A stretch of 64,000 bases of DNA from Thermococcus sp. 21S7 (GTDB lineage: Archaea > Methanobacteriota_B > Thermococci > Thermococcales > Thermococcaceae), in contig NZ_SNUT01000009.1 of assembly GCF_012027615.1 (NCBI RefSeq), positions 1-64,000 of the forward strand, read 5' to 3'. The position numbers and the translations under genes are program-made. The notes beneath the pieces were generated by a model. The model saw only the letters and a list, made by a program, of their open reading frames with translations. It did no database searches and was not told the origin of the DNA. Shown here in pieces: positions 43,565 through 57,145 of the stretch (positions are counted from its first letter, which is position 1; each line of letters starts with the position of its first letter).

Positions 43565-44971
43565 ATGCGCTTTGTAGACAGGGAGCGCGAGATGGAAGTT
43601 CTTGAGAGGGCCAGAAAACGCTCTCGGAGGAAACTCTACACCCTCGCAATCTACGGCCTCAGGCGGGTAGGCAAAACAAGGCTTTTAAGGGAATTCCTGG
43701 GCAAGAACGACATTTACTTCTTCGTGAACCGGGGTAAGAGCTCCGTTTCACTCCTCAGGGAGTACTCAGAGATTCTTAAGGAAAAGGGCATCCTCTCAAA
43801 GAGGGAAACCATAACGAGCTGGAGTGACTTCTTCGAGGTGCTCTTCGAGAGATTTGAAGGGGTTGTAGCCTTTGACGAATTCCAGGACTTCAGGTTTGTT
43901 GATTCTGCCGTCTATCCAACACTCCAGAGGTGTATAGACGAGAACGAGGATAGGTCAATCCTATTGATCTTCACAGGCTCAACCATTGGCATGGTGGAGA
44001 AACTCTTTAAGGACTCAAAAGAACCCCTCTACGGCAGGATTAAGCGAGAACTTCGCCTTGAACCGCTGAACATCAGGGGAAGTTATTTAATGGCCAAAGA
44101 GCTTGAAATAGAGAACCTAGATAGCTTCATAACGCTCTACGCCGTCTTCGGAGGTTTTCCCCGCTACTGGGTGGCGGTTGAAGATGAGGAACTTGAAGGC
44201 GAGAGCGCGGAAAGAATCCTTGAAGAGTTAATCTTCACATACTCAGCACCGCTTGAGGAGGAAGTTCCAAGAATCCTCTCAATTGAGTTCGGCAAGCGCT
44301 CCGGGATTTATTACGATATCTTAGAGGCCATAGCCAACGGTTCAACATCGCCAAGTGAAATTGCGGGCTACCTGAACAGAAAGGAGACATCCATAACGAG
44401 GCAACTACACGAACTTGTCGGCTATTTCAAGCTTGTTGACTACGACAGGGCAGTTCTCGGAAAGGGGGGAGTCCTCCACATAAAACATCCCTACCTCAAC
44501 TTCTGGTTTCGATTCATCCAGCCAAGGCTCAGCGAGTACGAGGTGAACAGGGAAAAGCTTTGGGAAGATGTCCTCCACAAACTTCCAGACTACGTTGGTC
44601 AGAGGTTCGACTTTGCCTGCAGGGAGCTTGTGAGACTCGCCGAAGAAAGAGGCATCATCCCCCTCGAAGTCTCAAAGATTGGGAGGCACTGGGGGTACTA
44701 CAGAGAAGAAGGCAAGAGAAGGGTATACGAGATCGATATCGTCGCACTCGACGCCGAGAGGAAAAGGGCACTCTTTGGCGAGTGCAAATGGAGGAAGAAG
44801 GCGATAAACACTGAAAAACTCGTTGAAGAGCTGAAAAGAAAGGTAGAACTAACTGGATGGAGAGGGGAGAGTTACTATCTTGTAATCGGGAGAAAGCTAA
44901 AGAACGTCCCGGAAAACGTTATAGCCCTTAACGAGGAAGACATCAAAAACCTGCTGGAGGGAAAGTTATGA
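43565..44971 (+). CDS. Archaeal AAA ATPase with C-terminal DUF234 nuclease-like domain
   Basis: 468 residues. Seen: Walker A YGLRRVGKTRLL near residue 33, Walker B VVAFDEFQDF near 102, a winged-helix region (SPSEIAGYLNRKETSITRQLHELVG) near 265. A C-terminal PD-(D/E)XK pattern also appears: EIDIVALD followed by FGECKWRKK near 400. This is the archaeal ATPase plus DUF234 design, common in Thermococcales in many paralogues, of unsettled function. Its stop overlaps the next start. Palindromes cover its promoter. Confidence 0.88.
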   Translation: MRFVDREREMEVLERARKRSRRKLYTLAIYGLRRVGKTRLLREFLGKNDIYFFVNRGKSSVSLLREYSEILKEKGILSKRETITSWSDFFEVLFERFEGVVAFDEFQDFRFVDSAVYPTLQRCIDENEDRSILLIFTGSTIGMVEKLFKDSKEPLYGRIKRELRLEPLNIRGSYLMAKELEIENLDSFITLYAVFGGFPRYWVAVEDEELEGESAERILEELIFTYSAPLEEEVPRILSIEFGKRSGIYYDILEAIANGSTSPSEIAGYLNRKETSITRQLHELVGYFKLVDYDRAVLGKGGVLHIKHPYLNFWFRFIQPRLSEYEVNREKLWEDVLHKLPDYVGQRFDFACRELVRLAEERGIIPLEVSKIGRHWGYYREEGKRRVYEIDIVALDAERKRALFGECKWRKKAINTEKLVEELKRKVELTGWRGESYYLVIGRKLKNVPENVIALNEEDIKNLLEGKL

Positions 44972-45720
44972 ACCGCAACGAGCTCGTTGCCTTCCTTGAC
45001 GAATACCTCAACGTTCAGGCTTACCCCGACAAGTCGAGCAACGGCCTCCAGGTGGAGGGGAAGGCGGAGGTCGAGAGGGTAGCGTTTGCGGTCGATACAA
45101 CACTAAGAACAATCGAGAGGGCCGCAAAGGCCAGGGCAGACATGCTCATCGTCCACCACGGCATGATATGGGGCGGCCTCGGCTACATCACCGGGATACA
45201 CTACAGGCGCCTGAAGGCCCTCATGGAGAGCGGGATAAACCTCTACGCCGCCCATCTGCCCCTGGATGCGCACCCCGAGGTCGGCAACAACGTCGAGCTG
45301 CTCCGCCTCCTCGGTATTGAGCCCAGGGGCCCCTTCGGCGAGTACCGGGGGCTGAGCGTGGGATTCTATGGGGAGTTCGCTGAGCCGCAGCCCATCGAGA
45401 AGGTGGCACAGGTAATAGCCGAGAAGCTTGGAACGACCGTGAAGACCTACGAGTTCGGGGCGAGGGAGATAAAAACGGTCGGTGCCGTGAGCGGGGCCGG
45501 GGCCTTCGCACTTGAGGAGGCGCACAGAAAGGGAATCGACCTGCTCGTAACGGGTGAATTCACCCACGCGGATTATCTGACGGCCATCGACCTGCCCCAG
45601 AGCGTCCTCGTTGCCGGCCACTACAAGACCGAGACTCTCGGGGTTAGGGCCCTGATGACTGTCGTAAAAGAAAAGTTCGGGGTGGATGTTTTCTTTATAG
45701 ACGAGCCGACGGGACTCTGA
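44968..45720 (+). CDS. Nif3-like dinuclear metal centre protein
   Basis: 250 residues, full family length. Metal ligands: IVHHGMIWGG near residue 55, a cluster around DAHPEVGNN, and VAGHYKTE near residue 212. The family (annotated as GTP cyclohydrolase I type 2 homologue) has no settled reaction. It overlaps the AAA ATPase stop by four bases. Its TGA stop (45718-45720) lies inside the CTGAC end of the small element at 45717-45766. Confidence 0.93.
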   Translation: MNRNELVAFLDEYLNVQAYPDKSSNGLQVEGKAEVERVAFAVDTTLRTIERAAKARADMLIVHHGMIWGGLGYITGIHYRRLKALMESGINLYAAHLPLDAHPEVGNNVELLRLLGIEPRGPFGEYRGLSVGFYGEFAEPQPIEKVAQVIAEKLGTTVKTYEFGAREIKTVGAVSGAGAFALEEAHRKGIDLLVTGEFTHADYLTAIDLPQSVLVAGHYKTETLGVRALMTVVKEKFGVDVFFIDEPTGL

Positions 45721-45766
45721 CATCTCCCCTCCCTGAAGGGCGAGCCTTTCAAAAGAAAGATGTAAA
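45717..45766 (-). mobile_element. 50-bp IS605-derived miniature element (copy A)
   Basis: On the minus strand it begins after TTTAC with a T-rich left end (ATCTTTCTTTT). It continues as a hairpin (CTCGCCCTTCAGGG) and ends GGGGAGATGTCAG. The layout matches copy B at 57094-57145 and both ends of the TnpB relic at 46702-47177. The terminal CTGAC on the plus strand contains the TGA stop of the Nif3-like gene. No coding capacity. Confidence 0.65.
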
Positions 45767-45834
45767 CACCTACACAAAGGATTAATAAAGATTGGCGCCC
45801 AAATTAAAGCAAAGGCGGAAAAGGGGGATACTGA

Positions 45835-46293
45835 ATGAGCAAGGGTCTGCTCATAATGGCCACAATCACAATAGCCCTTGTTGCATACGCCCTGACCACT
45901 GCCCAGATACCACCCGCGAGCATAGAGTACAAAGAGGTGTTCTACACAAACAACCAGAGCGTAACGTACATTACCAAAGACGGATTCGGACTGTTCTCGA
46001 TGGACATCAATCCCAAGGTTAACTCATTTGAGCTGAGTATAGAGTTCCCGGAAGGGACGAGCTACATGGTGCGCTATGGGGATCAGGTCTACAGGGGAAA
46101 GGACGAGTTCAAGATAACCGTTGAAAAAGGCAGCCTACCCGATGAAGTTTACGTTCACTTCCAGCTTCCCAAGGAGCTCACGAGAAAGCTCATCTATGAA
46201 AACGGTGAAGCGGTTATCACGATACGCGGGGACAAGACCCCCATCTGGCACGCCGAGGACACGATAATAGTGAGGTACAAGAAGAAAGAGTGA
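45835..46293 (+). CDS. Exported or anchored protein of unknown function
   Basis: 152 residues. N-terminal helix (LLIMATITIALVAYALTTAQIP), then a beta-rich outer domain. The ATG has a G-rich RBS (GGGGGAT), and a TATA-like segment lies near 45781. No family recognised. Confidence 0.72.
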   Translation: MSKGLLIMATITIALVAYALTTAQIPPASIEYKEVFYTNNQSVTYITKDGFGLFSMDINPKVNSFELSIEFPEGTSYMVRYGDQVYRGKDEFKITVEKGSLPDEVYVHFQLPKELTRKLIYENGEAVITIRGDKTPIWHAEDTIIVRYKKKE

Positions 46294-46294
46294 C

Positions 46295-46642
46295 TTAAAA
46301 ACATGCTAAAGCTCTTTTCAATTCTTCCGGTTTTAATATCGAAATAGAAACGTCCAATTCCTCGGCATATTCTTCTATCCAACCCAGTGAGGGTGCTTGG
46401 AAAGGATAGACAATCCATAGCTCCGGAAACCCTGCCCTTGACGCCTTAACAATGTTGTAGACTATTCTCTGCCGTATCCACTTGTAGGAGTTCTCAAGCT
46501 CGATGGCCAGGAGTTTTTCTCCATCTTTCAGGACGGCCACATCTATCCTGGTCCCATCACCGGTTCTATACTCCGGAACCGCCTCCAGGCCAAGATCCGT
46601 TGCGAGAGTGACTAATTCCCTGGTGAGGGTTTTGACTTTGAT
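46295..46642 (-). CDS. PD-(D/E)XK nuclease-like ORF without a normal start, probably truncated
   Basis: The frame open from 46295 has its first standard start only at GTG 46540 (81 residues), but protein-like sequence continues upstream to at least 46642. That stretch (KVKTLTRELVTLATDLGLEAVPEY) runs into RTGDGTRIDVAVL. RIDVAV followed by LAIELENS fits a PD-(D/E)XK fold. A GGTGGT stretch precedes an ATC codon at 46640-46642. Still further upstream the open frame runs into the TnpB relic boundary at 46702, so the 5' part may have been lost to the insertion. Either a mutated start or a truncated gene. Confidence 0.5.
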   Translation of the reverse strand: MKVKTLTRELVTLATDLGLEAVPEYRTGDGTRIDVAVLKDGEKLLAIELENSYKWIRQRIVYNIVKASRAGFPELWIVYPFQAPSLGWIEEYAEELDVSISILKPEELKRALACF

Positions 46643-46701
46643 TTTGAACCACCGAATGTGTTGGATGATTCCGATATAAAAGCTAATCTCCGCCCTGAAG
46701 G

Positions 46702-47177
46702 CTGACCTCCTCCCCGCCCCTGGGTTAGGGGGTTCCTCGTTGGAACCCTCGCCCTTCAGGGCGGGAAGGTTTGAGGGGTCTTCATAAGAACCCTCTCAAA
46801 TTCGGGTTCTTCGAACCCCTCTGGCCGGGCCTTCGGCCAATTACCCCTACCTCCCGCAAGAGCAGGAAGGCTAGGGGTTATGGTTTTCGCAACCTTCCTC
46901 AAAATGTTGAAAGCACCAACAAGGTCTGCATTCATAACAACGCCCTCTCTGTGGCACTCAAACAAACCTCTAACAAAACGAGCATTAGGATGGCGTTGGC
47001 CACAGAGAGGGCAGGATTGAGAAGTGAAAGCCTCATTCACAACCAAACCCCGGTTTCAGGGTTTAAATATTCTGTACTTTACTGCTTGAGGACTGTTGAG
47101 TTGTTTATTGCATCCCTGCCGCGAACGACGAGGCTTCCAAAAGAAAAACGTAAGGCTTGGAAAAAGAAAAATGTCAG
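46702..47177 (-). mobile_element. IS605-family (TnpB) element relic with internal deletion
   Basis: Bounded by CTGAC (46702-46706) and GTCAG (47173-47177). On the minus strand it opens with a T-rich left end present twice: ATTTTTCTTTTTCC, then TTAC and GTTTTTCTTTTGG. About 100 bases follow with a TATA-like ATATTTAAAC, then the last 96 codons of tnpB. The right end is a G/C-rich hairpin region (CCCGCCCTGAAGGGCGAGG) ending GGGGAGGAGGTCAG. The N-terminal three quarters of tnpB are missing, so it cannot move by itself. Confidence 0.8.
46756..47046 (-). pseudogene. TnpB C-terminal fragment
   Basis: 96 residues: NEAFTSQSCPLCGQRHP, then FECHREGVVMNADLVGAFNI, the zinc-finger and last RuvC aspartate of TnpB, followed by the GGRGNWPKARPEG tail common in Thermococcales copies. 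An in-frame stop (TGA) lies a few codons upstream of GLVVNEAF. The catalytic D and E of the earlier RuvC motifs are absent, so no nuclease can be made. The 3' end of tnpB is also the region that normally encodes the guide (omega) RNA. Confidence 0.85.
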
Positions 47178-48403
47178 CCCCAACCGCGGAGGTCCATCCT
47201 CAAAAGCCTGAACCGGGACACGGAAAGCGGAATCATCGAGAGGGCGGTCAACGTTAGGGAGGCCATAACGGAACCAATGGCAGGGGCAAAGAGGAGTGCG
47301 AGGAGGGGAACAGCCACCAAAGCCCCCCTTCTCGTGAACAGGCCGATGAGAAAGACCAGCGAGGCTAAAAAGAGGGCCACTCCAAAGGAGGCCCCCACGA
47401 AAGGAACCGAGATGGCAAAAACTGCCGAGACCACAAGGAACCGCAGGAGAAGGTAGTCCCTTCCCACCGGCTTGCTCAGCATCAGGAGCGGGCTCTCGGA
47501 GAGCACCTCAAGCGATGCCAGGGGCATGAGGAAGAGCAGGCCGAAGGCCTTGAGAGTTCCCTCAACTGGAAGGAGCATCAGGGGGAGGAGGGCCAAAAAC
47601 GTCCTTGAGGCCCAGAGATTGGCCAGCTCCTTCCTGAACCACCAGGGGAGGGCGGAAAGGTAGAGGGACGGAGGGGACGGCCTCAAAAGTCCCCCAGGCT
47701 CAACACGTAGGAAGATGGCCAGCGCCATCAACGTGAGGACAAGGGAGAAGGCGGCGGTGATGAAGAGCCTGAAAAGGGCGTCCCCGCCGTTATCCGCTTC
47801 CAGATCGCGCGCGAAGAGCTCAAGCTGGGCGCCGGGGGAGAAGAAGACGTAGGTCGTGTAGCGCCGCTCAAGGTTCTCGACGAGCGTGTGGTACTCGGCT
47901 TTTTTGGCCTCGTAGTCCCCAAGGCTGTGGATGCCGAGTGCTTCCTGAGCGTTCTCCTGGGCCTCCATCTGAACGATTCCCGGGGGGACGAAAGTGAGCA
48001 GGAGGAAAAGGATTACCCCGACCGCGAGGGTTTTCCTCGGGTTCCTCAGAACCAGAGCGAGCAGGTATCCGAGCGGGAGGAATGGAAGGGCAAAAAGCGA
48101 GTAGAGGGCTGATGACCGGCTGATGATGACGAAGGGGATTACGATGACGATGCCTGTGAGAACGTCCAAAAGCAGGAGCCGGAGAAAGAGACGGGAGCGC
48201 TTAAAGGGTTTTGGCAGGAGGAGCCCGAGCACGCTTTCCATGCCCCCGGGAAACACGGCTGAGAACAGGAAACCGACCAGGAAGTATGGAATCACCGGGG
48301 ACAGCTCCCCAAAGGCCAGCGCCGTTCCAAGCCCCAGGACGGGCAGGAGCGCAAGCTTTCCACGGAAACGAAGTATCTCAAGGCGCAGGAATGGCAACCC
48401 CAT
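47174..48403 (-). CDS. Multi-pass membrane protein, ABC-2 permease-like
   Basis: 409 residues, about twelve hydrophobic segments in two groups separated by a soluble loop (about residues 150-210). It is the last of three overlapping membrane protein genes. Its TGA stop (47174-47176) lies in the GTCAG end of the TnpB relic. No ATPase is encoded in this operon. Start uncertain: ATG 48403 overlaps the previous stop with GAGGTG directly adjacent. Confidence 0.72.
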   Translation of the reverse strand: MGLPFLRLEILRFRGKLALLPVLGLGTALAFGELSPVIPYFLVGFLFSAVFPGGMESVLGLLLPKPFKRSRLFLRLLLLDVLTGIVIVIPFVIISRSSALYSLFALPFLPLGYLLALVLRNPRKTLAVGVILFLLLTFVPPGIVQMEAQENAQEALGIHSLGDYEAKKAEYHTLVENLERRYTTYVFFSPGAQLELFARDLEADNGGDALFRLFITAAFSLVLTLMALAIFLRVEPGGLLRPSPPSLYLSALPWWFRKELANLWASRTFLALLPLMLLPVEGTLKAFGLLFLMPLASLEVLSESPLLMLSKPVGRDYLLLRFLVVSAVFAISVPFVGASFGVALFLASLVFLIGLFTRRGALVAVPLLALLFAPAIGSVMASLTLTALSMIPLSVSRFRLLRMDLRGWG

Positions 48404-49059
48404 CACCTCAGGTCTATCCTCTCGAAGACCATCACCGCCAGGAGCAGGTAGAGCGAGATGGAGAGCAGGGAGAGGAGAACATCGATTCCGGCTACGCTTC
48501 CAGCAGAAAGCGCCTTCCCCAGAGGAAGAGGGGGAAGGAGGAGCTTTTCGACCAGCCCCGGATTGTCAAGGCGCACGGCGAGCGCCAAAAGCGCGAAAAC
48601 AGCGCCCAAACTGAGGGGAACCCTGAGCTCATCGCGCAGAAACATCCCCGGAATCAGGCAAAGCGCCGAAACTGACAGCAGGAAGAGGACAGTCAGCAGG
48701 GAGGACTGGATGAGCGTTCCCGCATGGGGATAGTAGTGCCAGCCCACTGGGAGCGGGAGAAGCGTGAAGAGAACGGAGAGGAAAGCAACCCCCCCAAAGT
48801 GCTGGAGTAGGAGGGAAACCCTGTGCGAGGGCTTTGCCAGAACCACCGGGTTCCTTGGAACGTCCATGGCATGGAAAGCGACCAGGATTCCGCCGAAGAT
48901 GGCCATGAAGAATGTGTAGTTGCCGATGACCATCTCGGGGGTGAGCACCTTATCCGGGTCGCTGAAGAAAGTCACCGTGTAGAGCACCGACACCAGCAGC
49001 ACGCCGTAGAGCGTCTTCGCGTGGGTGTATTCTTTGAGTTTGAGCTCGAACAGCCACAT
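48403..49059 (-). CDS. Multi-pass membrane protein, ABC-2 permease-like
   Basis: 218 residues, six helices. A cytoplasmic opening (WLFELKLKEYTHAKTLYGVLL) of the type found in ABC-2 permeases is visible. Its stop overlaps the next gene start. Function unknown. Confidence 0.72.
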   Translation of the reverse strand: MWLFELKLKEYTHAKTLYGVLLVSVLYTVTFFSDPDKVLTPEMVIGNYTFFMAIFGGILVAFHAMDVPRNPVVLAKPSHRVSLLLQHFGGVAFLSVLFTLLPLPVGWHYYPHAGTLIQSSLLTVLFLLSVSALCLIPGMFLRDELRVPLSLGAVFALLALAVRLDNPGLVEKLLLPPLPLGKALSAGSVAGIDVLLSLLSISLYLLLAVMVFERIDLR

Positions 49060-49060
49060 C

Positions 49061-49621
49061 TCAGGACCTCCATTCCTTCCTTTTGACTGCGTGGAGGTAT
49101 GCGAGAGTGTAGATAGCCAGCGTCAGCGCGGAAGGGCCAACCCCGTAGTATGAAGACGCCAGCGGATTCCAGAGCGCGGGAAACCACCGCCCGGAACCCA
49201 TCAGGTGAACGGACGTTAGGACAAAGAAGAGGGGAGGGACGAGGGAAGCTTTTATCCCCATCCCCAGTACCGCGAACAGCAGGGCCGCGGGGACCGCGGA
49301 GAGAACGAGGAGGACGGCGTTCCCGAAGTTCCTGGAGGGGAGGGCGAAGAGGAGGGGAATGGAAAGGGCAATTGAAAACGCGATTAGAACTGAGATGGCA
49401 TAGTCCAGTCTTGAAACGGGGTTTTTCAGCTCGATTACCGCGTTTCGGAACGTCACAGCGGCGAGGGGAAACGCCGCGATTAGAATAAACAGCGCAAGGG
49501 TCATCGCCGGCGTCGTTGAGGGAGACAACCTGGAGTAGGCGAGCGAGATGGCGGAAAGGACGATGAGGACTTTTCCAAGCCTGCGCAGGTGAACCCTCAC
49601 CAGCCAGCCGTTCGTTCCCAT
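49061..49621 (-). CDS. Multi-pass membrane protein
   Basis: 186 residues with about six helices; the N-terminus is basic (VRVHLRRLGK). First gene of the three-gene membrane operon, one base before the next. No family recognised. Confidence 0.7.
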   Translation of the reverse strand: MGTNGWLVRVHLRRLGKVLIVLSAISLAYSRLSPSTTPAMTLALFILIAAFPLAAVTFRNAVIELKNPVSRLDYAISVLIAFSIALSIPLLFALPSRNFGNAVLLVLSAVPAALLFAVLGMGIKASLVPPLFFVLTSVHLMGSGRWFPALWNPLASSYYGVGPSALTLAIYTLAYLHAVKRKEWRS

Positions 49622-49660
49622 TGGGAGTTAGAAGGAAAGGAAAATTTAAAAACCTAACCC

Positions 49661-52402
49661 TCAGCCGAGCCTTCTCCTGACCGCCTCTACCGCCTCCTCT
49701 GCCTTCAGCGGGTTCTTGATTCTGCCCTGGGCGAGCTCCTTCCTTCCGCCGCCGCCACCGCCGGCGACCGAGGTTATTATTCTCGCCAGCTCTCCAGCTT
49801 TGAAGTCGAGGCCGTCGCCAACGGCAACGACGAAGTGGCCCTCCCTGCTGACGAGGACTATAACCCTCCTCTCCTTCCTGAGCCGGTTGGCAGCTTCGCG
49901 GAGGTCGTCCATCGCGCCCTCGACCACGGCACCGATGAACTCGACGTCGCCAACCTTCTCGACCTTGCTCTCAAGCTCGTAGACGAGGAGCTTGGCGAGT
50001 TCTTTCCTCAGCTTCTCGACCTCTTTCTTAGCCTCCTTCCACTCGTTGAAGAACCTCCCAGCCGTCTCCGGCACCTTCTCGACCGGAACGCGGAAGGTCT
50101 CGGCGGTTCTCTTGAGGAGCCTCTCGGTCTCCTGCATCCAGTCAACCGCGGCCTCTCCGGCGGCGAAGATTATACGCTCAACGCCGTCCTGTATGCGCTC
50201 GGTTCTCAGAATCTTGATCGGGCCGACCAAACCGGTGTTCGGCAGGTGCGTTCCACCGCAGGCCTGGACGTCCCAGTCCTCTATCTTGAGGACTCTAATC
50301 GTCCTTCCTGGAACGACGCCACCCTGGTACAGCCTGAACCCGTACTTCATCTCGGCCTCGGTTCTCGGAAGCCACTCCCAGGTCACCTTCCTGTTCTCCA
50401 TGACTGCCCTGTTGGCGAGCCTCTCAATCTCCCTGAGTTCCTCCTCACTTATGCGCTTGTAGTGGCTTATGTCGAGCCTGGCCCAGTCGGTGTGGAGCTG
50501 TGAACCGGCCTGCCAGACGTGCTTTCCGAGAACCCTAACGAGCGCTCCCATGAGGACGTGGGTTCCGGTGTGGTGGCGCATGTGCTGGATTCTCCTGTTC
50601 CAGTCGATCCTTCCGTGAACCTTCGCGCCGGGCCTGAATAGCTCAGGCCTCTCGACCCTGTGGAGGATGACCTTCCCTATCTTCTGAACGTTCCTGACCT
50701 CGACCCTCTCCCCATCAACTTCGAGTTCACCGAGGTCGCACGGCTGGCCTCCGCCCTCCGGGTAGAAGGCGGTCTGGTTGAGCACCACCCAGCCGTCTAT
50801 GACCTTGAGAACCTCGGCATCGAACTCCCTCATGAACGGGTCTTCGTAGTAGAGCGTCCTCGTGTCCGGGAGTTCCTTGACGAGCTCAAAGTCAACGACG
50901 TATTTGGCGGCCTCTTCCTTCGCGGTCTTCTCGGCGTCCTTGGCGACGAGGGTGTAGAAGTTGTCGGGAATGTGAACTTTAATCCCCTCGCCCCTGGCGA
51001 CTTCCGCGACTATTTCAGGGGTTAAGCCGTGGCTCTCGTAGAACAGGATGAGCTTCTCCAGGGGTATCTCGTCCCCCCCGGACTTTTTAAGCTTGGAAAT
51101 CTCGCGCCTCACGAGGTCGCTTCCGCGCTTAAGGGTCTCCCGGTAGCGCTTCTCCTCGACGTTGACTATATCGATGATTACATCCTCCATCTCCCCGAAC
51201 TCCGGGAAAGTCCTGTAAAGCTCCTTGATGTGCATCGCAACTACCTCGCTCAGCGGCATCTCCAGCCCGAGCTCGCGGAGGTGCCTTATGCTCTTCCTTA
51301 TCAGGAGCCTCGCAAGGTAGCCTGCCTTGACGTTGGACGGAATGACGCCGTCGGCCAGCATGAACGTCAGTGCCTTCGTGTGGTCGGCTATCGCGTAGAC
51401 CAGCTCGTAGGGTCTCACGGCCTTCTCAAGCTCCTCAACGCTGATTCCAACGCGTCTCGCGACCTCCTGGCGGAGAACCTTGAGGTCGCCCATGTCCTCG
51501 ATGTCGAACATTCCAGCGAGGCGGGAGTTCTCCATGAGAATTCTCTCGTCTATCTTCTCTATCCCGGCCGCCCTCTTCAGCGGCTCGACGACGTAGCCGA
51601 GAACTGCGTCGTAGGCCGTTGGCGTTCCCTGGCTCATCCAGACGAGTCTCTCAAGGCCGTAGCCGGTGTCAACTACCCTCGTCTCCATCGGCACGTAGCG
51701 GTCGCCCTTTATCTCGACGACCTGGCTCGGATCGGCGTTCTCCGGGGCCTTCTTGTACTGCATGAAGACGAGGGTTGCAACCTCAAGACCGCGGTAGAGC
51801 ACCTCGAAGGCCGGGCCCGCGTTTCCTCCGCCTGCCCACGGGTTCTCCTTGAAGGTTATGTCCTCGGCCTTCATTCCGAGGTCTTTCGTGAAAAACTCGA
51901 ATGCCAGCTCGACCGTCTCGTCCATCCAGTATACCGGCTTGCCGGGGTAGTTGAAGGCGTGGTGGGCCATCATCTCGAAGATGGTGAAGTGTCTGCCGGT
52001 TATTCCAACGTTGTCTATGTCGGTGAACCTTATCGAGGGCTGGCTTATCGTGAGCGGATTCGCGGGAGGATCGGCCTCACCGCTGATGACCCAGGGCTGG
52101 AAGTCCATTATGCTTGCACCAACGAGGAGAACGTCGTCCCTCCAGCGCGGCAGAACTGGATAGCGCTTCACCCTTCCGTGGCCGTGTCTCTCGAAGAAGC
52201 TCAGGAACTTCTCGCGCATCTCCTCAAGGGTGTACTTCTTCGGTATCCCGGGCTTTCCTATGAAGGCGTACTCGTCACAGGGCGGGTCGCCGCAGGTCTC
52301 CCTGTCCGGGTCGAGCGTCCAGAAGAACTTCCCGCACTTGGGACACTGCTTTCTGATCCATCCTTCCTCCTTAAACATTCTGGTCGTCATGTCCATGCTC
52401 AT
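49661..52402 (-). CDS. alaS: Alanyl-tRNA synthetase
   Basis: Attaches alanine to tRNA-Ala; 913 residues. Seen: an N-terminal zinc-binding extension typical of archaea ([23 protein letters not shown]), class II motifs in the first 270 residues, editing-domain ligands [12 protein letters not shown] near 600 and [10 protein letters not shown] near 705. A C-terminal Gly-rich [14 protein letters not shown] follows. ATG 52402 follows GAGGTGAGG. A free-standing editing protein (AlaX) is also encoded in this window. Confidence 0.97.
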
Positions 52403-52459
52403 AATCCTCACCTCTTTAAACTGAAGTAGAAACGGAAGCGGGACTAATTAAAGTTTCCC

Positions 52460-52756
52460 TTATTCCTTCGAATCCCGTTCAAGGTCGAGCTCAACGTCCT
52501 CGAACCTATCCTCATCAATGATTACGAAGGGAATCCTGAGCTTTCGAAGGAACTCAACGAGTCTTTTCTCGCGTTTTTCCATCAACTCAACTTTGTGCCT
52601 AAGGCTTGCGTTCTCTATCGCCAGACGGTTGGCCTCGTCCACCTTGAGGTTCAGCTGCATGCGGAGTTCCGTTATTTCGTCCTCCAGCTCCCGTATGGAG
52701 CGTTCAAGGCGCTCGATTTCCTCCAGGTACTCGCGGCAGAGGCGCTTTCGTATCAT
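52460..52756 (-). CDS. Small coiled-coil protein
   Basis: 98 residues. Residues 8-70 form a leucine-heptad coiled coil (LEEIERLERSIRELEDEI and onward); the C-terminus is acidic after a short beta segment (IPFVIIDEDRFEDVEL). No family recognised. No clear RBS precedes the ATG; instead a C/D box sRNA ends about five bases before it, so the two may share a transcript. Confidence 0.72.
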   Translation of the reverse strand: MIRKRLCREYLEEIERLERSIRELEDEITELRMQLNLKVDEANRLAIENASLRHKVELMEKREKRLVEFLRKLRIPFVIIDEDRFEDVELDLERDSKE

Positions 52757-52759
52757 CTC

Positions 52760-52813
52760 GGTCAGCCCCGCGAAACGTCATCACCAATCAGGGGGCTCCA
52801 GACTCATCATCCC
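52760..52813 (-). ncRNA. C/D box sRNA (2'-O-methylation guide)
   Basis: Read on the minus strand: C box ATGATGA (52804-52810), 12-base guide GTCTGGAGCCCC (52792-52803), D' box CTGA (52788-52791), a 3-base spacer, C' box GTGATGA (52778-52784). The second 12-base guide CGTTTCGCGGGG (52766-52777) and D box CTGA (52762-52765) follow. All four boxes match consensus, both guides have the standard length and the whole is about 52 bases, the usual archaeal size. By the fifth-base rule the guides would direct methylation of a C in GGGGCUCCAGAC and a G in CCCCGCGAAACG. The target RNAs were not identified. Confidence 0.9.
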
Positions 52814-52902
52814 CAACCATTAACGCGTTCAAGCTCATAAGCCTTTGCCCGCGAAGGTTTTTCAAAAATGAAACACTTTTCTTTTATTAATCTCAAAGTC
52901 AA

Positions 52903-52914
52903 ACTTTAAAAAGG
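52903..52914 (+). promoter_or_regulatory. TATA box of the alanine symporter gene
   Basis: ACTTTAAAAAGG predicts transcription near 52932 and a leader of about 75 bases, longer than usual in this window. In it, TGTACTGG (52929-52936) could pair with CCAGTACA (52975-52982). Confidence 0.5.
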
Positions 52915-52978
52915 ATAAAGCACATAAATGTACTGGCTAGTAATGCCATGTGCAGTATACGCGGTAAAAGACCACCAG

Positions 52979-52990
52979 TACACATGTGTA
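52979..52990. promoter_or_regulatory. Perfect 12-bp palindrome in the symporter leader
   Basis: TACACATGTGTA is a perfect inverted repeat just before the GAGGTG RBS (52997-53002). A DNA-binding regulator or RNA structure could use it. Unknown. Confidence 0.45.
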
Positions 52991-53008
52991 GGTTTAGAGG
53001 TGTTAAAG

Positions 53009-54559
53009 ATGAGCGCCATCGTGGACTTTATAAACTGGCTCGATGGGGAAGTCTGGGGCATACCCATGATAGTGTTGCTGCTGGGCACCGGTATTCTCCT
53101 GACAGCGTTTCTGAAAGTGATACAGTTCAGGCGCTTGGGCTGGTCCATCAAGTTCACCCTCTTCGAGGGCAGGAAAAAGACCGGTGAGGGTGACATCACC
53201 CCGTTCCAGGCGTTAATGGCAACTATATCAGGAACCGTCGGTATCGGAAACATAGCCGGTGTTGCAACGGCAATCCATTTCGGTGGCCCCGGAGCCCTGT
53301 TCTGGATGTGGATAACGGCACTCGTGGGAATGGCCACGAGGTACTCGGAGGGACTCCTTGGAGTTGCCTTCAGGGACACCCTTCCCGACGGAACGATGAT
53401 AGGAGGAACCTTCAACTTCCTCGAAAAGGGCTTTGCCATGGAAAACATACCAAAGACGGGTAAATACATAGCGGCGATTTTCACACTGCTCTTTGCCCTC
53501 TTCGTCGGCTACGACGCCACCAAGCTGGCCGGCGCCACCCAGGTGGGGGCAATAATAGTCGCGATACTCTTCGGCATCCTCGGCCTCTTCCTGCTCAAAG
53601 ATGACGCATATCCAACGCTCGGAAAGGTGCTGGCGATACTCTTTGCGCTCTTCGCCTCCATAGCGGCCTTCGGAATAGGCAACATGACGCAGTCGAACTC
53701 CGTTGCCGACGCCCTGAAAACGGCCTTCGACATCCCGATGTGGGTTACGGGTCTGGTTCTGGCGGTGCTGACGTTCGTAGTCGTCATAGGCGGTATCAAG
53801 AGGATCGGTGAAGTCGCGGAGATGCTCGTGCCGTTCATGGCAATAATATACTTCCTCTTCGCCATAGGCGTCTGGATAAAGTTCGCAGGGAAGCTCCCAA
53901 GTGCCATCGCACTCATCATCAACGACGCCTTCACAGGAAAGGCCGTGGCAGGCGGTGCGATCGGCCAGGTCATCCTCTGGGGTGTCAAGAGGGGTCTGTT
54001 CTCCAACGAGGCAGGTCTCGGTACCGCAACGCTCGCCCACGCCGCGGCCAAGACCGACCACCCCTCCAGGCAGGCCCACGTCGCGATGCTCGGTCCGTTC
54101 ATAGACACCCTCATCATCTGTACCCTCACCGGCGTCTCGATAGTCGTCACGGAGGCCTACCTCAACCCCGACCTCAACGGTGCACCGCTCACCCAGGCGG
54201 CTTTCGCGGCTGCCTTCGGACACGCGGGCGAGATAATGGTCGCCATAGGCATCGTGCTCTTCGCCTACTCGACGATACTCGCCTGGTCCTTCTACGGCAG
54301 GCAGAACGTCATGTACCTCGCCAAGTGGCTCGAACAGGACCCCGAGAAGTTCGCCAAGCTCTATCCGAAGCTGCACCTAATCTACAACCTGCTCTTCGTC
54401 GTCTTCATCTACGTGGGTTCGGTGACCAAGCTGGAAACGGTCTGGAACTTCTCGGACATGATGAACGGACTCATGGCGATACCGAACCTGATAGGCCTGC
54501 TCGTCCTCTCATGGTACGTCAAGAAGAAGACGGACGAGTTCGTCTCGGCCAACCCGTGA
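53009..54559 (+). CDS. Sodium:alanine symporter (AGCS family)
   Basis: Takes up alanine or glycine with sodium; 516 residues and about eleven helices. Family signatures: MATISGTVGIGNIAGVATAI near residue 70, GPGALFWMWITALVGMATRY, and GLFSNEAGLGTATLAHAAAK near residue 335. ATG 53009 has GAGGTG upstream; the frame to 52928 adds residues with no family character and would cover the palindrome. The next gene, 36 bases on, encodes an aminotransferase-fold enzyme that may act on the imported amino acid. Confidence 0.94.
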   Translation: MSAIVDFINWLDGEVWGIPMIVLLLGTGILLTAFLKVIQFRRLGWSIKFTLFEGRKKTGEGDITPFQALMATISGTVGIGNIAGVATAIHFGGPGALFWMWITALVGMATRYSEGLLGVAFRDTLPDGTMIGGTFNFLEKGFAMENIPKTGKYIAAIFTLLFALFVGYDATKLAGATQVGAIIVAILFGILGLFLLKDDAYPTLGKVLAILFALFASIAAFGIGNMTQSNSVADALKTAFDIPMWVTGLVLAVLTFVVVIGGIKRIGEVAEMLVPFMAIIYFLFAIGVWIKFAGKLPSAIALIINDAFTGKAVAGGAIGQVILWGVKRGLFSNEAGLGTATLAHAAAKTDHPSRQAHVAMLGPFIDTLIICTLTGVSIVVTEAYLNPDLNGAPLTQAAFAAAFGHAGEIMVAIGIVLFAYSTILAWSFYGRQNVMYLAKWLEQDPEKFAKLYPKLHLIYNLLFVVFIYVGSVTKLETVWNFSDMMNGLMAIPNLIGLLVLSWYVKKKTDEFVSANP

Positions 54560-54595
54560 CCTCTCGTTTTTTCAACTTTTTACCCCTTCGAGGCG

Positions 54596-55984
54596 ATGAA
54601 AATGACTTCTGAGTACCCGAAAATCCTGGTCAAACCCCCGGGACCAAAGGCGAGGGAGCTCATTGAGAGGGAAGAAAAAGTTATCTCGCCGGGCCTTGGG
54701 GTCAAGCTCTTCCCCGTGGTTCCGGAAAGGGGCTACGGTGCGCTGATAGAGGACGTTGACGGAAACGTCTTCATAGACTTTTTAGCGGGAGCCGCGGCCG
54801 CCTCGACCGGCTACGCGCATCCGAAGCTCGTGAGGGAGGTTCAGGAGCAGGTGGAGAAGATACAGCACTCGATGATTGGATACACCTACAGCAAGCGCGC
54901 GATAGAGGTCGCCGAGATACTCGCGGAGAAGGCTCCCGTGGAGGAACCGCTGATGCTCTTCGGCATGAGCGGGAGCGACGCGATGGATTTGACCATGCAG
55001 GTGGCGAGATTCGCCACGAGAAGGCCGTGGATGATAGCGTTCATCGGCGCCTACCACGGTCAGACCTACGGCGCCACTTCAATAGCGGCCTTCCAGAGCT
55101 CCCAGAAGCGCGGTCTGTCCCCCCTGATTCCCAACGTTGTCTGGGTGCCCTATCCAAACCCGTACAGAAACGTCTGGGGAATAAACGGCTACGACGAGCC
55201 GGACGAGCTGATAAACCGCTTCCTCGACTACCTTGAGGGCTACATCTTCGCCCACGTGCTCCCTCCCGACGAGACGGCCGTTCTCATAGCTGAACCCATC
55301 CAGGGCGACGGGGGAATAGTCGTTCCGCCGGAGAACTTCTTCATCGAACTCAAGCGGCTCCTCGACGAGCACGGAATACTCCTGGCGATGGACGAGGTGC
55401 AGACGGGGATTGGAAGAACCGGGAAGTGGTTCGCCAGCGAATGGTTCGGCGTTGAGCCTGATCTCCTGGCCTTCGGCAAGGGCGTCGCCAGCGGTATGGG
55501 GCTGAGTGGGGTTATCGGGAGGGGAGAGCTGATGAAAGGCCTGACGAGCGGCTCCGCGCTCCTAACCCCCGCCGCAAACCCCGTGATTTCAGCAGCAGCA
55601 TACGCTACGCTGAGGATAATCGAGGAGGAGAACCTCCTCCAAAACGCCCTGCGCGTCGGGGGGTTCATTCAGAAACGCCTGCGGGAGATGCAGGAAGATT
55701 ACGAGGTAATCGGAGACGTCCGCGGAAAGGGTCTGATGATAGGGGCGGAGATAGTCAAACCCGACGGAAAGCCTGACCCGGAGCTGACCGGGAAGGTGTG
55801 CTGGCGCGCCTTCGAGCTCGGCCTCATTCTGCCCAGCTACGGCATGTTTGGAAACGTGATAAGGATAACGCCGCCGCTCGTGATAACCGAAGAGCTCGCC
55901 GAGAGGGGCCTTGAAATAATGGAGCGGGCTCTCAAAGATGCTCTGGCCGGGAAGGTCACCCACAGAACCGTTACGTGGCACTGA
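54596..55984 (+). CDS. Class III PLP enzyme, aminotransferase or amino acid racemase
   Basis: 462 residues. Seen: GxxxxDVDGNVFIDFLAG opening of the family, AYHGQTYGA, AMDEVQTGIGRTGKWFA, and the PLP lysine in LLAFGKGVASG. The opening YPKILVKPPGPKA and the length match the Thermococcales group that includes both ornithine-type aminotransferases and broad amino acid racemases. The neighbouring alanine symporter makes an alanine-related racemase or aminotransferase the best guess, but the sequence alone cannot decide. ATG 54602 is an alternative start. Confidence 0.9.
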   Translation: MKMTSEYPKILVKPPGPKARELIEREEKVISPGLGVKLFPVVPERGYGALIEDVDGNVFIDFLAGAAAASTGYAHPKLVREVQEQVEKIQHSMIGYTYSKRAIEVAEILAEKAPVEEPLMLFGMSGSDAMDLTMQVARFATRRPWMIAFIGAYHGQTYGATSIAAFQSSQKRGLSPLIPNVVWVPYPNPYRNVWGINGYDEPDELINRFLDYLEGYIFAHVLPPDETAVLIAEPIQGDGGIVVPPENFFIELKRLLDEHGILLAMDEVQTGIGRTGKWFASEWFGVEPDLLAFGKGVASGMGLSGVIGRGELMKGLTSGSALLTPAANPVISAAAYATLRIIEEENLLQNALRVGGFIQKRLREMQEDYEVIGDVRGKGLMIGAEIVKPDGKPDPELTGKVCWRAFELGLILPSYGMFGNVIRITPPLVITEELAERGLEIMERALKDALAGKVTHRTVTWH

Positions 55985-56059
55985 TTCCCCTCCAACTTCC
56001 AATATTTTTGAACCGGTCGATGAAGAAGTTTTTAAGAGAAAGCCGCTGAGCTTCATCCC

Positions 56060-56932
56060 ATGCGGTGGAAGGTACTGGTTGCCCTGCTGGCCGCAATCAT
56101 GGTTGCGGCTTCGGGATGCATCGGGAGTTCGAACGCCCCTCCATCCACGGTCACAGTGACTATGACCACAACCGCCACGGAAACCGTGACCGAAACTCCC
56201 TCGCCGACCGTTGACCTGGCGGGGAATCTATCGAGGTGCATGGAGCACCTGACGTATCTCAACCGGACGCTCAGGGAGGCGGAGGAGGGGTTAAGCAACG
56301 TCACCAAAAGGTACGAGAGGTGCCTCGTTGACCTCGCCGTTCTGGGGAATTCCACCACTTCACTCAAAAACTGCCGGGCGGAGCTGGAGAGAACGAAGGG
56401 TGAGCTGAAGGAAAGGGAGGATGAGATGAGGGAGCTCCGGGCGAACCTGAGCCGCTGCAACGCGCAGCTGGAAACGACGCTGACCGGAGACCTAACTGTG
56501 AAACTCCTGACCGACGAGGAGTACTACAAGAACGTCATCGATGCCATAAACGGCGCGGAGAAGAGCATCTACGTCATGATGTTCTCAATGCTCTACGACC
56601 CGGACGACGGCTTCGACTGGGCAAACGACCTCATACGGGCACTCGTTGCCGCAAAGAACAGGGGTGTTGAGGTTCACGTACTGCTGGAAGACGGCGTAGA
56701 GAGCAACAGAGAAGCGTACGGCTACCTGCGCTCTCACGGCGTCGACGTTTCCTTTGACTCCCCCGGAACGACCCTCCACGCTAAGGTCGTCGTAATCGAC
56801 GGAAGGCTAGTCTTCATCGGGAGCCACAACTGGAGCGAGAGTGCCCTCTACTGGAACCACGAGGTCAGCCTTATGGTGGCCTCGGGGGAGCTGGCGGAGA
56901 GACTCATCGAATACTTCGAGGGCATCCGCTAA
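56060..56932 (+). CDS. Phospholipase D-like lipoprotein
   Basis: 290 residues. Seen: lipoprotein signal with lipobox ASGC at residues 17-20, a Thr-rich stalk, a coiled-coil stretch with spaced cysteines (SRCMEHL, ERCLVD, KNCRAE, SRCNAQ), then one PLD domain with HAKVVVIDGRLVFIGSHNWSE. A single HKD motif is typical of Nuc-type endonucleases and related PLD proteins that act as dimers. It would sit on the outer face of the membrane. A TATA-like GTTTTTAAGA lies about 30 bases before the ATG, suggesting a leaderless mRNA. Confidence 0.88.
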   Translation: MRWKVLVALLAAIMVAASGCIGSSNAPPSTVTVTMTTTATETVTETPSPTVDLAGNLSRCMEHLTYLNRTLREAEEGLSNVTKRYERCLVDLAVLGNSTTSLKNCRAELERTKGELKEREDEMRELRANLSRCNAQLETTLTGDLTVKLLTDEEYYKNVIDAINGAEKSIYVMMFSMLYDPDDGFDWANDLIRALVAAKNRGVEVHVLLEDGVESNREAYGYLRSHGVDVSFDSPGTTLHAKVVVIDGRLVFIGSHNWSESALYWNHEVSLMVASGELAERLIEYFEGIR

Positions 56933-56971
56933 GGATTTAAAGTCCCGTTCGAAAATCCGGTGGGTGCAAAA

Positions 56972-57097
56972 ATGCTCGAATCCCTGAGAAAAGCCTACCG
57001 GAAGTGGCGCTCCCGATGCCCGTTCGTCCGCCGCGTTGAGGAGTGGAGGATGAAAAAGAAGGCGAGGAAGTTCAGGGTAGAGGTGAAGAGGTACTGA
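56972..57097 (+). CDS. 41-residue basic protein
   Basis: A short frame with ATG 56972, a GGTGGGTG RBS at 56958-56965 and a TATA-like GATTTAAAG about 35 bases upstream. The product is strongly basic (about 18 Lys/Arg), with one cysteine and a Trp-rich start (SLRKAYRKWRSRCPFVRR). Its TGA stop lies in the CTGAC end of element B. Possible nucleic-acid-binding peptide; no family recognised. Confidence 0.6.
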   Translation: MLESLRKAYRKWRSRCPFVRRVEEWRMKKKARKFRVEVKRY

Positions 57098-57145
57098 CCT
57101 CCTCCCCGCCCTAAAGGGCGAGACTTGTGAAAAGAAAAATGTCAG
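57094..57145 (-). mobile_element. 52-bp IS605-derived miniature element (copy B)
   Basis: Bounded by CTGAC and GTCAG. On the minus strand: left end ATTTTTCTTTTCAC, hairpin CGCCCTTTAGGGCG (6-base stem), right end GGGGAGGAGGTCAG, identical to the right end of the TnpB relic. It fills the whole gap between two convergent genes; both stop codons (57095-57097 and 57142-57144) are inside its terminal repeats. Confidence 0.7.

Follow-up and report, generated by a model that had tools for sequence, protein, structure and literature searches.

Boundary stops in the window

Do short transposon-derived elements supply the stop codons of neighbouring genes, or do they come to lie at stops that those genes already possessed? 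This question is raised by the window (the whole 64,000-nucleotide stretch of Thermococcus sp. 21S7 analysed here, on contig 9 of a 2.37-Mb genome), in which several genes end at the boundary of such an element. A preliminary description of this DNA attributed these ends to a family of IS605-derived elements, bounded on both sides by CTGAC, that provide the stops. The three elements, their sequences and the TGA codons at 45718-45720, 47174-47176, 57142-57144 and 57095-57097 are all present as it reported. The relevant features are the following.

44968-45720, plus strand: DUF34/NIF3 (Nif3-like) gene (Pfam PF01784), with its TGA (45718-45720) inside the right end of copy A (reverse complement CTGA)
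45717-45761, minus strand: copy A, 45-bp mini-element with AAAG guide and right end TCAG
45762-45765, minus strand: TTAC target of copy A, reading GTAA on the plus strand; GTAANCACCTACACAA is conserved in many relatives on the 3' side of the Nif3-like gene
46683-46701, minus strand: right remnant of the outer mini-element of copy B, CCTTCAGGGCGGAGATTAG
46702-47149, minus strand: inner element of copy B, a TnpB-derived IS605 remnant lying inside the outer mini-element
47150-47153, minus strand: TTAC that arose through a mutation of the outer hairpin and served as target for the inner element
47154-47172, minus strand: left part of the outer mini-element of copy B, ATTTTTCTTTTTCCAAGCC, with CAAG guide
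47173-47176, minus strand: outer TGAC target of copy B, holding the membrane-protein TGA (47174-47176); empty site in L301/L302
47174-48406, minus strand: membrane-protein gene, ending at the TGAC target of copy B; weak ABC-2 match, below the cut-off
56972-57097, plus strand: conserved 41-residue basic protein, TGA 57095-57097, compared with the C-terminal ends in relatives
57094-57140, minus strand: copy C, 47-bp mini-element of TGAC type with CAAG guide and right end GTCAG; exact empty site in L241/L242
57141-57144, minus strand: TGAC target of copy C, holding the pre-existing hisS stop (57142-57144); TGAC joined to TACCTC in L241/L242
57142-58461, minus strand: hisS, its stop unaltered by the insertion according to orthologue comparison

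Rfam also matched the C/D box sRNA sR23 (RF01138) at 52760-52812 (minus strand) of the window.

Distribution and ends of the family

The source genome contains 22 exact copies of the 14-mer right end GGGGAGGAGGTCAG; a degenerate right-end pattern added one match, and the reversed-pattern control gave one. A covariance model built from 12 mini-element copies matched this genome 52 times at E<=0.1, the top 20 or so being convincing mini-elements, and it detected the family in 53 of the 61 genomes of the genus. Read from its T-rich end, the consensus is ATTTTTCTTTTGAAAGCCTCGCCCTTCAGGGCGGGGAGGAGGTCAG, preceded by TTAC. A typical mini-element is ∼47 bp long and consists of an LE linker, a hairpin (-16 kcal/mol for the consensus) and an RE end; the hairpins of LE and RE resemble each other as direct repeats. 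Mini-elements share with the PATEs discussed below a non-coding length, fused termini, a near-terminal palindrome and the lack of target duplication. At one site, of interest for a possible origin by core deletion between these hairpins, a longer RE is found in L343 and a mini-element in L338/L349; the other end of L343 was not located.

An autonomous tnpA-bearing relative with the same ends exists in the genus. TnpA (PF01797) is encoded in 15 of the 61 genomes, and several of its loci (for example L412, L417, L420, L421 and L423) are flanked by the family LE, adjoining tnpA, with the RE beyond; their left end is that of the family and their right end reads GGTCAG. These shared ends bear out the proposed IS605 derivation, and the mini-elements are very probably terminal-only derivatives of an IS608-like IS200/IS605 transposon. 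In the source genome, the TnpB zinc-ribbon family gave 20 matches, 18 of them above the cut-off, but a search for TnpA gave none, so that the elements may be immobile there unless TnpA comes from outside. For the same reason, current mobility and an enzyme acting in trans are putative.

The exact 33-base hairpin and right-end sequence is also found in Archaeoglobales, Desulfurococcales, Sulfolobaceae, Caldivirga and other archaeal genomes (L192-L239). Linkers in other archaeal phyla are shorter or different, often of the form TTAC-AACTG-AAAG, and the stop contexts of matches there are unreadable by a simple open-frame test. A literature search on Thermococcus MITEs turned up nothing useful.

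Co-variation of guide and target

Copies were oriented and then divided into host target, linker, guide, hairpin and right end. After merging two shared insertions, this gave 126 distinct copies, 94 of the TTAC class and 32 of the TGAC class, a sample that leans to high-scoring, near-consensus copies, with genes called by a simple method based on codon usage. Exact empty sites show that the target, TTAC or TGAC, is host sequence retained in the left flank without duplication. Consequently, CTGAC does not bound the element on both sides as had been supposed: the left boundary is the host tetranucleotide, and only the right GTCAG (reverse complement CTGAC), which reads CTGA on the opposite strand, belongs to the element.

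The guide tetranucleotide lies at the 5' foot of the subterminal hairpin, and it changes with the target. Among the 126 copies, a perfect TTAC target is accompanied by AAAG in 73 cases and by CAAG in 3, and a TGAC target by CAAG or CAGG in 24 and by AAAG in 2 (Fisher P=6e-18); a strict search for the CAAG pattern found only 9 copies. Since the target is host sequence, this co-variation points to recognition as well as to common descent. In IS608, which has a TTAC target and an AAAG guide, the first guide A (A+16) pairs with the second target T (T-3) (PMC5934647). It is exactly this pair that differs here, the target having G in place of T and the guide C in place of A. Both the co-variation and the empty sites support the view that the guide would select its target by base pairing, AAAG with TTAC and CAAG with TGAC.

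Fate of the stop codons

Comparison with orthologous loci shows that the stop usually pre-exists at the target and is then either kept or swapped in register. When the insertion follows TGAC, the TGA of the same-strand gene is untouched and is already present in the empty site, with the T-rich left end TTTTTCTTTT placed immediately 3' of it. Such empty sites at stops were found for copies B (L301/L302) and C (L241/L242) and for L052 (L404), L088 (L399) and L160 (L368/L370); in L402, L403, L406 and L407 the TGAC at the stop is kept and the flank has diverged. TGAC was hence confirmed as an insertion point, in agreement with the preliminary description.

When the insertion is at a TTAC whose opposite strand reads NNG-TAA, the gene on that strand comes to end in NNC-TGA. 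The stop has the same offset in GTAA and in CTGA; protein length is hence unchanged, and the last residue may change. In one pair, L099 has GAAAAA followed by CTGACC..., where L344, a relative with 97% identity, has GAAAAA followed by GTAATAGG. Further empty sites with GTAA at a stop are L346, L348, L396 and L397 for L056, L351 for L095 and L350 for L153. No matching empty site was found in relatives for the R-type loci L089, L116 and L154, and several other loci had no relative in the comparison set.

In the whole set, a boundary stop is in use in 29 of the 126 distinct copies, 13 on the left and 16 on the right. The statement that the boundary contains a stop in every case therefore holds for the window and fails for the family. 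The 16 genes that use the right boundary are convergent genes ending at CTGA; three more end in another frame within the element body. We also observed different mini-elements at an identical stop-codon target in relatives (L341 and L333; L362 and L371), which suggests that the site was reused or that one element was replaced by another.

Copy C illustrates both outcomes. At the end of hisS, GCC-TGAC is directly followed by TACCTC in L241/L242, and the two are separated by the 47 bp of the element in the window. On the other strand, the insertion split the TAG of the 41-residue ORF, and the right end gives TAC TGA, which adds one Tyr. This protein is conserved (KWRSRCPFVRRxEEWRMKRKAREFRVEVK) and has no Pfam match; it ends in VKR or VKK in the closest relatives and in VKRY in the window, and therefore copy C does supply its stop. 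The idea that elements provide their neighbours with stops is thus correct for this ORF, but not for the same-strand genes at TGAC copies, whose stop was already their own. The 41-residue ORF is convergent to hisS in many genomes of the genus.

At copy B, the outer empty site in L301 and L302 consists of TGAC followed by CTTTTATA, and the inner element carries a TNB domain (PF07282, 46756-47046). Judged from its sequence, copy B is evidently an older TGAC-type mini-element that inserted at a pre-existing stop and was later entered by a TnpB-derived element. The segment 46702-47177, previously taken as a single element, is accordingly divided between the nested remnant (46702-47149) and the two parts of the older mini-element (47154-47172 and 46683-46701).

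The history of copy A is more complex. Downstream of the Nif3-like gene, the complement of the TTAC target of copy A, GTAAACACCTACACAA, is conserved, and in genome G004 (L272) an IS605 right end starts at the position matching this target; relatives gave no clean empty site. In relatives, some 15-33 nt separate the gene's own stop from the target downstream. Because of these additional bases, a deletion of some 15-33 bp of the 3' flank probably joined the end of the Nif3-like gene to CTGA, the order of events being our reconstruction. A plain exchange of GTAA for CTGA had been considered for copy A and was dropped, as the orthologues indicate the additional deletion.

Excess of copies at stops and its explanation

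Relative to all non-coding sites plus stops, the excess of stop overlap anticipated in the preliminary description is real. A stop is overlapped by 13 of the 32 TGAC copies (41%) versus 9% expected (P=2e-6) and by 15 of the 94 TTAC copies (16%) versus 4% expected (P=3e-6), an excess of ∼4-fold over random non-coding sites. Within 60 nt on the 3' side of a stop, the corresponding values are 62% versus 53% for TGAC (P=0.27) and 52% versus 35% for TTAC (P=0.048). Since the excess at this distance is small or absent, survival near gene 3' ends accounts for most of it, and neither special tuning nor a terminator role is needed. The earlier proposal that the transposase prefers TGAC and that insertions survive at stops comes close to these data; it requires amendment in that TTAC is the commoner target and that the stop is usually preserved or swapped rather than supplied.

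We consider the following explanation highly probable as a whole. Mini-elements of IS608 type, reduced to their termini, would be moved in trans by TnpA via single-stranded DNA, and the internal tetranucleotide just 5' of the hairpin would pick the target through pairing, by analogy with IS608. Each target contains a stop: TGAC carries TGA on the strand of the element, and TTAC carries TAA on the opposite strand, which reads GTAA. The right end reads CTGA. An insertion after TGAC would hence leave the upstream gene its stop, and one at an opposite-strand NNG-TAA would yield NNC-TGA in register. When the stop of a convergent gene is split, the right end may directly provide a new one, as for the 41-residue ORF at copy C. 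Insertions that are silent or nearly silent for the proteins would then persist in a compact genome, as the distribution of copies suggests. Selection might in addition have shaped the ends for compatibility with stops, keeping CTGA in register with GTAA and, through the change of guide from AAAG to CAAG in one lineage, retargeting the element to the safe haven of TGA stops; this extension is doubtful.

Oligo-T tracts act as archaeal terminators. The T-rich left end and hairpin could accordingly form a portable 3'-end signal, copies at stops being kept for 3' end formation, a role suggested earlier for the hairpin. In TGAC copies, the T tract immediately follows the stop and precedes a stable hairpin, which would fit such a role. 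However, the orientation bias expected of a portable terminator is not seen near gene ends. TTAC copies are enriched with the T tract facing the gene end (22% versus 10%) and facing away (31% versus 14%), and TGAC copies likewise (66% versus 21% and 25% versus 7%), so that enrichment is about equal both ways for each target type; moreover, no Rfam family matches the elements. A terminator role is thus unlikely. This symmetry also speaks against an element tuned by its transposase or end sequence to gene ends or stops beyond the tetranucleotide, for which the ∼4-fold excess, the remaining TTAC excess within 60 nt and the distinct elements at one stop site in relatives could be invoked. The TGAC excess is not significant over that distance, and IS608 chooses its target by the tetranucleotide plus the next base (PMC5934647), which makes such tuning quite improbable. 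That the overlaps arise by chance or from ORF calling might be considered, as the family is common, the tetranucleotides are short and a TGA followed by C makes TGAC itself very common at gene ends. Yet exact empty sites in orthologues already carry the same stop, conserved proteins end there and the excess over random non-coding sites has P values near 1e-6; already contradicted by the orthologues, this reading is most improbable. Survival of guide-selected insertions that spare or exchange a stop remains our preferred explanation.

Comparison with known systems

Several IS200/IS605-derived sequences resemble the Thermococcus mini-elements in part. One group is the 52-bp PATEs of Haloquadratum walsbyi, IS605 derivatives reduced to their termini, for which an origin by repeat-mediated core deletion and a possible mobility were suggested (PMC3119063); fused near-terminal palindromes, a length of ∼50 bp and the lack of target duplication are common to both. 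PATEs differ in sequence and host, and the available text of their description includes neither an in-register stop exchange nor co-variation of the guide. In Borrelia, IS605B stem-loops also place IS605 end hairpins at the 3' ends of genes, there lipoprotein genes, with an overlap of the final coding bases in one case (PMC2775950); by contrast, they are single ends on plasmids, presented in the accessible part of that report without in-register stop exchange or empty-site analysis. REP/REPIN sequences, intergenic and thought to be non-autonomous mobile elements, share the small hairpin with a 5' tetranucleotide guide (PMC6006769, PMC8266576). Their guides are GTAG-like and associated with a separate TnpA class, whereas the mini-elements derive from a classical IS200/IS605 element.

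As in IS608 (ISHp608), the TTAC target is kept in the left flank and an AAAG guide lies 5' of the hairpin; the right cleavage site is TCAG instead of TCAA (PMC5934647). Unlike IS608, most mini-element copies lack both genes, and a natural CAAG sub-group uses TGAC. Engineered guide changes are able to redirect IS608 (PMC5934647), and the Thermococcus family is a natural counterpart of this retargeting, in which guide and target co-vary within one genus and the empty sites prove the target. In the part of the literature covered, neither a naturally switched guide nor a stop exchange was reported, which leaves novelty unproven. By trading one stop for another in register, transposon ends would have a route into dense genomes without harm. 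The published IS608 ends share this property, TTAC and TCAA reading GTAA and TTGA on the opposite strand, and it is therefore testable in other genomes.
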